NCBI RefSeq assembly: GCF_018986915.1
Contig: NZ_CP076723.1
Span: forward strand, 3,893,501 to 3,957,500
DNA length: 64,000 nucleotides
Direction of reading: 5' to 3'
From: Geomonas oryzisoli
Lineage (GTDB): Bacteria; Desulfobacterota; Desulfuromonadia; Geobacterales; Geobacteraceae
Shown: in pieces, positions 31,036-44,247 of the stretch
Numbering within the stretch: the stretch's first letter is position 1
How the letters are laid out: the number at the start of each line of letters is the position of its first letter
Notes under the pieces: generated by a model
The model's database searches: none
The model's input: only the letters and a program-made list of their open reading frames with translations
What the model was told of the DNA's origin: nothing
Program-made: the position numbers and the translations under genes

Positions 31036-31152
31036 TCCGGTCAAATTAGCGGAAAGGGTGGTGATTGTCAAACAACATTGAATTAATTCGGGACTAAGTA
31101 AGTGCCGATACGGGCGGCGTGTCACAGGGGACGAGCAGGGGCAACTTTTTTG

Positions 31153-31181
31153 TTGACATTAGAGCGTGCGGGTAGCATAAA
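31153..31181 (+). promoter_or_regulatory. Promoter of the DAHP synthase leader
   Basis: TTGACA at 31153-31158, 17-bp spacer, CATAAA at 31176-31181. The predicted start is at or next to the leader ATG at 31189, so the leader peptide would have almost no 5' untranslated region. Confidence 0.55.
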
Positions 31182-31188
31182 CGCTGTC

Positions 31189-31275
31189 ATGATCAACACC
31201 GGCTACTTTACCTTTACTAACTTTTACTTTTGGTACGGCTTTTATTTTAGGCCGTCGCCCCGGGTAGAGGTGTAA
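31189..31275 (+). CDS. Aromatic leader peptide of the DAHP synthase gene, 28 aa
   Basis: A short open frame starting at 31189 and ending TAA 31275. In its first 20 codons it has six Phe, four Tyr and one Trp: after MINTG comes YFTFTNFYFWYGFYF. Such density of all three aromatic amino acids directly ahead of the first enzyme of aromatic synthesis is the hallmark of a ribosome-mediated attenuator. The tail is RPSPRVEV. No clear ribosome binding site is seen. The RNA after it folds into competing hairpins and an intrinsic terminator before the enzyme gene. Confidence 0.85.
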   Translation: MINTGYFTFTNFYFWYGFYFRPSPRVEV

Positions 31276-31402
31276 TTTAGGTAGCAGGTACTAAATTCCG
31301 AACCGAAGCCGGGGTGGCAGGATTCTCCTCCCCCTTACGGTTCGGATAGCAGATTACCAGAACATCATACTAAGGGCCGGGGGAGCAATCCTTCCGGCCC
31401 TT
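31274..31402 (+). promoter_or_regulatory. Attenuator upstream of DAHP synthase
   Basis: Stem I: AATTTAG (31274-31280)/CTAAATT (31291-31297), beginning at the leader stop codon. Stem II: CCGAACCG (31298-31305)/CGGTTCGG (31338-31345). Terminator: AGGGCCGG (31373-31380)/CCGGCCCT (31394-31401), then TTTCGCTTTC. CTCCCCC (31328-31334) and CCCTTA (31332-31337) are complementary to GGGGGAG (31379-31385) and TAAGGG (31371-31376), so an antiterminator that breaks stem II and the terminator is possible. Phe/Tyr/Trp shortage would stall the ribosome in the leader and shift the balance. Confidence 0.75.
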
Positions 31403-31432
31403 TCGCTTTCGGGGACCAAAAGGAGCGTGAGT

Positions 31433-32452
31433 ATGATCGTGGTAATGAAGGCAGGAGCGGCAAAGAAGGAACGGGACGCGGTAACGAAGAGGATCAAGGA
31501 GCTCGGCTACACCCCGCACATCATCCGGGGCACCACCCGCGACGTGATCGGTGCGGTCGGCGACGAGCGGGGCAAGAGCGTGCTGCAGTCGCTCGAATCG
31601 ATGCAGGGCGTCGAGAGCGTGGTCCCCATCCTGCAGCCCTACAAACTGGCCTCCAAGGAAGTGAAGAAAGAGCCGAGTGTCGTGCGCATCTCCGACACCC
31701 TCGCCATCGGCGGCAAGGAACTGGTAGTCATGGCCGGCCCCTGTTCGGTGGAGAGCGAGGAGCAGATCATCGAATCCGCCAAGGCCGTCAAGGCCGCCGG
31801 TGCCCAGATGCTCAGGGGGGGCGCCTTCAAACCCCGCACCTCCCCCTACTCCTTCCAGGGTCTTGAAGAAGAAGGCCTCAAACTTCTCGCCAAGGCCCGC
31901 GACCTCACCGGCCTCCCCTTCGTCACCGAAGTCATCGATCCCGAAACCGTCGACCTGGTCGCCTCCTACTCCGACATGCTTCAGATCGGTGCGCGCAACG
32001 CGCAGAACTTCGCCCTCTTGAAGAAAGTCGGGCAGATCAACAAGCCGATCCTGTTGAAGCGCGGCATGTCCATGACCATCCAGGAATTCCTGATGAGCGC
32101 CGAGTACATCATGAGTGAGGGGAACCAGTCGGTGATCCTGTGCGAGCGCGGCATCAGGACCTTCGAGACCGCCACCAGGAACACCCTCGACCTCTCCGCC
32201 ATCCCGGTTCTGAAGAACAAGACCCATCTCCCGATCGTCATCGATCCCTCCCACGGCACCGGCAACTACCACTACATCGCGCCGATGTCCTATGCCGCGG
32301 TTGCCGCAGGCGCCGATGGTCTGATCATCGAAGTGCATCCCGATCCCGAGAAGGCGTCCTCGGACGGGCCGCAGTCTTTGAAGCCGAAGAAGTTCCAGGC
32401 ACTGATGGACCGTCTGAAACTGTTCGCGGAGGCGGCGGATAAGACGCTGTAA
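31433..32452 (+). CDS. aroF: 3-deoxy-7-phosphoheptulonate (DAHP) synthase
   Basis: First enzyme of the shikimate pathway, joining phosphoenolpyruvate and erythrose 4-phosphate. 339 aa from the ATG at 31433 (AGGAG seven bases ahead; the GTG at 31427 is too close). It is of the class with an N-terminal ferredoxin-like/ACT-like regulatory domain (residues 1 to about 70) and a TIM barrel with [44 protein letters not shown] and [12 protein letters not shown]. Expression is predicted to be attenuated by the upstream aromatic leader; the regulatory domain suggests product feedback as well. Confidence 0.95.
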
Positions 32453-44159: not shown

Positions 44160-44247
44160 GGAGAGATGTCCGAGTGGTCGATGGTGCCTGACTCGAAATC
44201 AGGTGTACCGAAAGGTACCTAGGGTTCGAATCCCTATCTCTCCGCCA
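44160..44247 (+). tRNA. tRNA-Ser (anticodon CGA)
   Basis: Seven-base-pair acceptor stem GGAGAGA/TCTCTCC, long variable arm TGTACCGAAAGGTACCT typical of class II tRNA, T-loop GGTTCGAATCC, encoded CCA. The anticodon stem-loop CCTGACTCGAAATCAGG places CGA at the anticodon. The 3' 60 bases are repeated at 47783-47842, showing that an element integrated here and rebuilt the gene. Confidence 0.95.
44188..44247. repeat. Left attachment repeat (in tRNA-Ser)
   Basis: 60 bp from the anticodon stem through CCA, identical to 47783-47842. Sequence beyond the CCA diverges at once (ATAAAA versus TATTAAG), which fixes the right boundary of the repeat. Confidence 0.92.

Follow-up and report, generated by a model that had tools for sequence, protein, structure and literature searches.

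A probable ribosome-mediated attenuator with an aromatic leader peptide upstream of aroF, and the spread of its RNA core in related bacteria

The window (the whole 64-kb stretch of DNA that was analysed) carries on its plus strand a type I-beta DAHP synthase gene, aroF, which is preceded by a short leader ORF and a series of RNA arms (Table 1). The two best named matches of AroF among the matches listed were both from Geomonas and 98% identical. The window corresponds to G000:C1:3893501-3957500 of a Geomonas-like genome, called the own genome below. The first 20 of the 28 leader codons comprise six Phe, four Tyr and one Trp codon, and the spacing from the leader stop to the aroF ATG (31433) is 157 nt; an earlier note on this DNA had given the same frame, composition and distance, and all were reproduced. 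Such a density, 11 aromatic residues in 20 codons, was unique to the leader ORF among the six frames of the window, and the sole case that came near was one minus-strand 20-codon stretch with 9 aromatic residues. So the locus has what is typical of an attenuator at the coding level, that is, a short ORF rich in codons for the end-product amino acids and placed 5' of the cognate gene.

Table 1 Positions of the aroF leader features in the window
Feature	Position	Strand	Details
-35 element TTGACA	31153..31158	+	Conserved 29/29
Weak -10 candidate CATAAA	31176-31181	+	17-bp spacer; start predicted at about the leader ATG
Leader peptide ORF, 28 codons, MINTGYFTFTNFYFWYGFYFRPSPRVEV	31189..31275	+	ATG 31189, TAA 31273-31275
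Aromatic codon block Tyr6 to Phe20, predicted ribosome-stalling zone	31204..31248	+	Masked folding, codon counts
Arm 1, inside leader ORF	31251..31263	+	Core GTCGCCCC 31254-31261; covered by ribosome in leader tail (model)
Stem I at leader stop codon	31274..31297	+	31274-31280 with 31291-31297; swap test
Hairpin 2:3 (stem II of the earlier note)	31297..31346	+	31298-31305 with 31338-31345
Long-range stem P0	31298..31412	+	About 31298-31307 with 31402-31412; encloses 2:3 and 4:5; swap test
Arm 2, partner of arm 1 or arm 3	31308..31321	+	Core GGGGTGGC 31311-31318
Arm 3, partner of arm 2 or arm 4	31325..31340	+	
Arm 4, partner of arm 3 (antiterminator) or arm 5 (terminator)	31372..31385	+	
Arm 5 and poor U-tract; 4:5 terminator candidate	31389..31409	+	Stem 31372-31385 with 31389-31402; U-tract UUUCGCUUU 31401-31409
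aroF, type I-beta 3-deoxy-7-phosphoheptulonate synthase	31433..32452	+	PRK08673 / TIGR01361

In all 29 sequences compared (the window and L004-L031), an exact TTGACA precedes the leader ATG by 29-32 nt; 26 of them were counted by program and three by eye, namely L007 (by an ATG immediately ahead of the TTG listed) and L020 and L030 (by a second TTGACA). Six SD-like words were absent from the 20 nt before the leader ATG in 28 of the 29, with AAGG in L008 as the one case, and were present instead in the distant relatives L033-L037, L039, L040, L047 and L056. The -10 candidate of the leader promoter is non-canonical, and a consensus scan found no sigma-70 promoter in 31050-31450 and no promoter in L022, L009 or L066 either. 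From the promoter geometry, the transcript would start at the leader ATG or within a few bases of it and would be nearly leaderless, as the earlier note had suggested; the constant TTGACA spacing and the missing SD-like words both support this. C. glutamicum attenuators of the aroR kind are said to be leaderless as well, reportedly after Neshat et al. 2014.

Downstream of the aromatic block, the RNA may form a relay of five arms with two registers, 1:2 with 3:4 for read-through and 2:3 with 4:5 for termination. Arm 1 has the core GTCGCCCC in the window and GTCTGCCC in most relatives, and its partner arm 2 follows about 50 nt downstream. The pairing scheme proposed before, with its stems and the alternative 3:4 pairing, is present and comparison-supported, but arm 1, the element that a ribosome could cover, was missing from it. 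P0 is nested with 2:3 and 4:5 and would form a pseudoknot with 1:2; it ends a few bases before the aroF Shine-Dalgarno (SD) sequence, which itself lies outside P0. The his operon attenuator of enterobacteria likewise has alternating stems in a chain, one register of which causes termination and the other read-through, but there the codons are His codons in front of his genes, whereas here U-runs are possible after both 2:3 and 4:5.

Support for the pairings came from comparison of relatives. In alignment A2 (38 sequences, 37 distinct), standard pairs made up 94.3% of the cells of arm 1:arm 2 versus 87.7% in shuffles (0/500 as high), and sliding arm 2 by 1-3 columns lowered its pairing with arm 1 to 32.9-44.3%. 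Cells altered on both sides numbered 20, versus 4.3 ± 1.7 in shuffles (0/500), and four pairs had two-sided change versus 2.2 (21/500 as high). The window itself has two-sided changes at two 1:2 pairs, U-A to G-U and G-C to C-G, and the outermost pair (columns 46-129) was unpaired in 14 of 36 sequences. In the swap test, own partners were compared with swapped partners in the 29 sequences (2000 swaps, kinship ignored). Own partners of arms 1 and 2 had a mean of -21.99 kcal versus -20.47 kcal for swapped ones, and none of the 2000 swaps was as low; the corresponding counts were 0 for 2:3, 6 for 3:4, 0 for 4:5, 1 for stem I and 0 for P0. Control pairs outside the model made no difference, neither arm 1:arm 4 (1481/2000) and arm 2:arm 5 (405/2000) nor the P0 controls arm 1:P0b (1169/2000) and P0a:arm 5 (1259/2000). 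Stem I, the terminator stem and the 3:4 alternative of the earlier note are thus supported by own-partner fit, and compensatory change, which it had named as a check, was also found as two-sided changes in 1:2. Mutually exclusive RNA pairings backed by comparison are a second mark of attenuators, and they are seen here with kinship among the sequences ignored. RNAalifold on a MAFFT alignment gave 4:5 plus fragments and nothing more, presumably because the alternative pairings compete. In alignment A3 the windows were picked by arm complementarity, so its pair counts are biased towards the model, and A2 and the swap test are fairer.

The aromatic codons are positioned with respect to arm 1: in 51 leaders, 485 of 999 codons upstream of arm 1 were aromatic versus 7 of 386 from arm 1 onward, the leader ORFs in relatives having been chosen by aromatic content and the identity of the downstream gene being unselected. 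We then masked the ribosome footprint, with its size assumed from E. coli, codon by codon in the 51 leaders on transcripts that stopped just past arm 2. When an aromatic codon was occupied, the 1:2 pairing formed (P over 0.5) in 414 of the 492 such placements, and an A-site positioned where arm 1 begins brought P(1:2) below 0.05 in 51/51 leaders. In the window, 9 of the 11 aromatic stall positions left arm 1 free, and the stop position gave P = 0.00. L008, L026, L028, L033 and L039 had 1:2 at under 75% of their aromatic positions. A ribosome exactly at the stop codon was already past arm 1 in 16/51 leaders, so in these the ribosome has to be held up further upstream in the tail. Among 40 further loci of the phylum, 261 of 340 aromatic stall positions left arm 1 free, loci with mis-assigned arms included. 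By computation, then, the control codons are placed so that stalled and completed translation free different arms, which is a third mark of attenuators. In ribosome-free transcripts ending at arm 2, 1:2 was predicted to be absent in the window, L004-L006 and some relatives and to be formed in many others, and in the model the basal behaviour of the switch may differ between genera.

For 15 of the 51 leaders, folding was extended to longer transcripts. For the stalled window, 2:3 was favoured at equilibrium directly after arm 4 (12.9 expected pairs versus 0.2 for 1:2), the state was mixed at +4 nt, mainly 1:2 with 3:4 at +7 and +10 (7.9 and 11.9 expected pairs at +7, respectively) and mixed again at +13. 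From +16 on, 2:3 with 4:5 won in the stalled state. The stop state had 2:3 throughout and then 4:5, with the 1:2 plus 3:4 phase absent, so that 2:3 with 4:5 prevailed in both states after arm 5 had been made. The read-through register is thus transient at equilibrium in the window, which means that the choice must be kinetic, with 1:2 made before arm 3 exists. Eleven other stalled leaders (L009, L012, L018, L027, L050, L053, L055, L058, L063, L066 and L070) had 1:2 with 3:4 from the start, and in L004 this phase was barely seen. The 3:4 pairing formed in both states in L006 and L070, and L053, L055, L063 and L066 had early 3:4 at the stop as well.

We consider it likely, at a probability of roughly 80%, that the leader region is a ribosome-mediated transcription attenuator of aroF; the computed support covers pairing conservation and compensatory change, codon position relative to arm 1 and the sign of the 1:2 switch. 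Translation of the leader ORF would take place on a transcript that is leaderless or almost so, and if Phe-, Tyr- or Trp-tRNA ran short, the ribosome would stall in the aromatic block. Arm 1 would then remain free and pair with arm 2 on emergence, arm 3 would be available for arm 4, and 2:3 and 4:5 would not form in time, so that aroF would be reached. With the aromatic tRNAs charged, the ribosome would enter the non-aromatic tail and cover arm 1, 2:3 and then 4:5 would pair, and transcription would end at the terminator or terminators.

For the window, termination is the weakest-supported step of this model. The tail of the terminator stem there is a poor U-tract (UUUCGCUUU), hairpin 2:3 has no U-run in the window and L004-L006 (many relatives have one), and the consensus scan found no terminator in 31050-31450. 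The missing terminator site and U-run, together with a P0 stem that passes the own-partner test and stops just short of the SD sequence, fit another reading in which, in the genus of the window, the leader acts mainly at the level of translation or RNA stability, with 2:3, 4:5 and P0 gating ribosome access and little termination. We regard that reading as unlikely, and several observations speak against it. The SD sequence lies outside P0. In L066 (Rokubacteria) 4:5 is clearly terminator-like. A looser terminator script, which had no shuffled control and allowed one bulge at most, found U-tailed 2:3 and/or 4:5 in 41 of 51 regions, including 4:5 of the window.

The consensus scan gave one terminator site each in L022, L009 and L066, little more than in shuffles (means 0.6, 0.7 and 0.2). 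By the looser script, 2:3 had a U-rich tail in 28 of the 51 regions, 19 of them with 4:5 too, and 13 had 4:5 only: the window, L004-L006, seven Rokubacteria loci, L012 and L023. The last two were filed as 4:5 only, yet their 2:3 runs into U-rich stretches. Neither hairpin was reported in the remaining 10 (L031-L040), which were missed because only one bulge was allowed; the hairpin finder mostly saw U-rich tails after their 2:3, and it still fails on hairpin 2:3 of L042. Since 4:5 is the only candidate in the window, L004-L006 and the seven Rokubacteria loci, the signal of the attenuator must pass via 3:4 in these.

Phe, Tyr and Trp were each found in 29/29 leaders (window and L004-L031), so the aromatic codons are conserved in relatives, a point on which the earlier note had let its reading stand or fall. 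A nine-codon core anchored on the Trp has a Gly two codons further on in 29/29, and many of its remaining changes are synonymous or Phe/Tyr swaps. The frame in which arm 1 is read is not constant. It was frame 2 (mostly Ser-Ala) in 37/51 leaders, a count that takes in L047 and L056, where arm 1 is located at the stop codon or 3' of it. In 11/51, among them the weak L006, it was frame 0 (Val-Cys-Pro or similar), and in 3/51 frame 1. For the 40 further phylum loci the numbers were 13 in frame 2, 16 in frame 0 and 5 in frame 1, where the arm finder gave no frame for 6 and mis-assigned the arms in at least L133, L145, L157 and L160, all counted. The arm 1 nucleotides are thus kept across three frames, which indicates RNA constraint and not peptide constraint.

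To survey the distribution, two models were searched. Model R1 matched 247 of 277 genomes of the class (175/187 good-quality ones, 78/82 genera), with no match in 30, and it had a single match in the own genome. In all 30 loci kept from the R1 class search, aroF was next downstream; since the aromatic codons are part of R1, its matches are to some extent selected for aromatic leaders. Covariance model R2 matched 49 of the best 80 aroF loci listed (named genomes) at E up to 0.01, with 19 of the 49 in its training set and L006 just outside at E 0.011. Two Rokubacteria loci, L051 (1608-1702) and L073 (1577-1674), have the element at a distance of 1.3-1.4 kb upstream of their aroF match; the intervening DNA of L073 includes the end of another DAHP synthase, which suggests tandem aroF genes. 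Within the own genome, R2 gave 11 matches at E up to 5, of which only the window was convincing (7.4e-6); the next, G000:C1:522737-522795, is weak (E 0.006).

Besides aroF, the own genome encodes a type I-alpha (C1:1967539-1968432, L087) and a type II (C1:1614682-1615995, L088) DAHP synthase. Their regions were not among the R2 matches and no aromatic ORF was seen by eye upstream of them, so the idea that all DAHP synthases of this genome share the leader was rejected, and the leader gates one of three DAHP synthase isoenzymes. The earlier note had read the locus as one leader sensing all three aromatic amino acids on the shared first enzyme; a DAHP synthase is indeed downstream, but with two isoenzymes lacking the leader this was overstated.

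In a set of 395 genomes from the phylum (which we take to be Desulfobacterota in the wide sense, and which would include Desulfovibrio vulgaris by common classification), R1 matched 109, and 94 of these were outside the class. We examined 40 loci outside the class, nearly all with E up to 1.5e-4 (G457:C21 at 1.3e-3; G650 and G409, also in that range, were left out). The gene downstream was a DAHP synthase in 22, of which 20 were 57-71% identical to that of the window and L152 and L163 only 33%, and an ADH synthase in 5. Six loci (L122, L133, L136, L151, L154 and L164) had a phenylacetate-CoA ligase, where the three scanned scored just below the TIGR02155 curated cut-off and the three others were 79-93% identical to L122; in L123 a phenylacetate-CoA ligase came after an intervening TPR gene. 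Five loci had a periplasmic solute-binding protein, with Peripla_BP_6 (Pfam) in L135 and L137, 86% identity in L156 and only about 30% in L153 and L161, and one (L147) had a shikimate kinase with chorismate synthase, by eye.

The leader codons track the gene, the leaders having been chosen by aromatic content here too. Leaders of 20 DAHP synthases had F 90, Y 76 and W 18, with Trp absent in 6/20, and those of the five ADH synthases had F 21, Y 20 and W 4, which means Phe and Tyr, usually with Trp, at the pathway entry. The six ligase leaders were mainly Phe (F 50, Y 4, W 4; Tyr and Trp in L133 and L136), and the five solute-binding protein leaders (F 18, Y 16, W 0) were individually mostly Tyr or mostly Phe. 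In L135, L137 and L156 the core is the same and the leaders are rich in Tyr (GYYYYGYLRRSAL and the like), which suggests, as far as codons can tell, tyrosine uptake. Leaders of this kind are not peculiar to aroF, since several other aromatic genes of the phylum also have one with this core upstream.

These data also bear on whether the ORF is a small functional hydrophobic peptide, with the hairpins being an ordinary terminator and 5' UTR structure. The well-conserved peptide core near the Trp with its invariant Gly would suit such a peptide, but the tail peptide is not conserved, arm 1 being read in three frames across lineages, the aromatic block ends at arm 1, arms 1 and 2 covary, and the codon content follows the downstream gene, so we find this very improbable. 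In Rfam at gathering score, the window had nothing but a tRNA at 44160-44244, an E-value threshold added two sub-threshold chance-level matches, and 13 related loci had one tRNA and no leader, T-box or riboswitch family. A metabolite-binding riboswitch or T-box controlling aroF, with an incidental ORF, would agree with a biosynthetic gene downstream and mutually exclusive structures, but it is scarcely credible given that, tRNAs aside, no Rfam family was matched at gathering score in the window or the 13 related loci and that the best-conserved parts are the aromatic codons and the complementary arms. Leader conservation and the swap tests both speak in favour of the earlier note's aromatic leader peptide with attenuator-like structures before DAHP synthase.

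The core of the putative family consists of arm 1 GTCTGCCC, arm 2 GGGCAGAC and two terminator hairpins. We lean towards the view that one homologous attenuator family spans the window's phylum and Rokubacteria, in which the core was copied before five gene kinds (DAHP synthase, ADH synthase, phenylacetate-CoA ligase, shikimate kinase and solute-binding protein genes), its nucleotides stayed the same while the frames changed, the codons were re-tuned and the terminator moved from the first to the second hairpin in some lineages, that of the window among them. It seems somewhat probable, on the same view, that mixed aromatic codons go with pathway entry, a predominance of Phe with the ligase and Tyr or Phe with uptake.

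Several related systems are in print. In C. glutamicum, aroF attenuation with an aromatic leader (aroR) has been described (PMC11802643, PMC4046766), and in the available text of these papers it is alike in having an aromatic (Phe-Tyr-Phe) leader before a DAHP synthase gene and in being ribosome-mediated. C. glutamicum belongs to a different phylum, and, compared by description, the element here differs in its longer block, which holds all three aromatics, and in its relay of five arms, where two terminator candidates are frequent. For Acholeplasma, attenuation upstream of aroF was proposed for the uORFC-13-1 motif (PMC8632094), in which a candidate uORF before aroF, Phe coding and a terminator are shared with our element, whereas the sequences are from Acholeplasma and the environment and the accessible part of the paper describes an RBS and at least one Phe codon. 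The same source mentions an E. coli aroF attenuator as a hypothesis. A putative attenuator of the D. vulgaris aroA' operon was predicted in Merino's database (PMC1173090); the gene of the same alternative entry enzyme, ADH synthase, is preceded by the core in 5 loci here, but the prediction is for one species, and in the part of that source available a leader or shared core is undescribed. The available parts of two further papers list a Shewanella aroF motif (PMC2659441) and report conserved RNA structures before phenylalanine or tyrosine operons as absent in Actinobacteria (PMC1262725). In the literature searched, with most subscription papers outside it, the element in Geobacter or the shared core was nowhere described, so the kind of attenuator is known and this branch seems undescribed there.

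Work on attenuators has mostly dealt with single genes in a small number of model bacteria. The RNA core described here can be recognised throughout a class (247/277 genomes) and at several aromatic genes beyond it, and the frame shifts through the core let RNA-level and peptide-level constraint be separated directly. The relay also offers a natural series in which the terminator has seemingly shifted between two hairpins. From the leader codons, the family would predict Tyr or Phe uptake by the solute-binding proteins and a phenylacetate-CoA ligase that serves Phe supply, and it predicts an aromatic regulon in bacteria that are relevant to metal reduction and electrochemistry.
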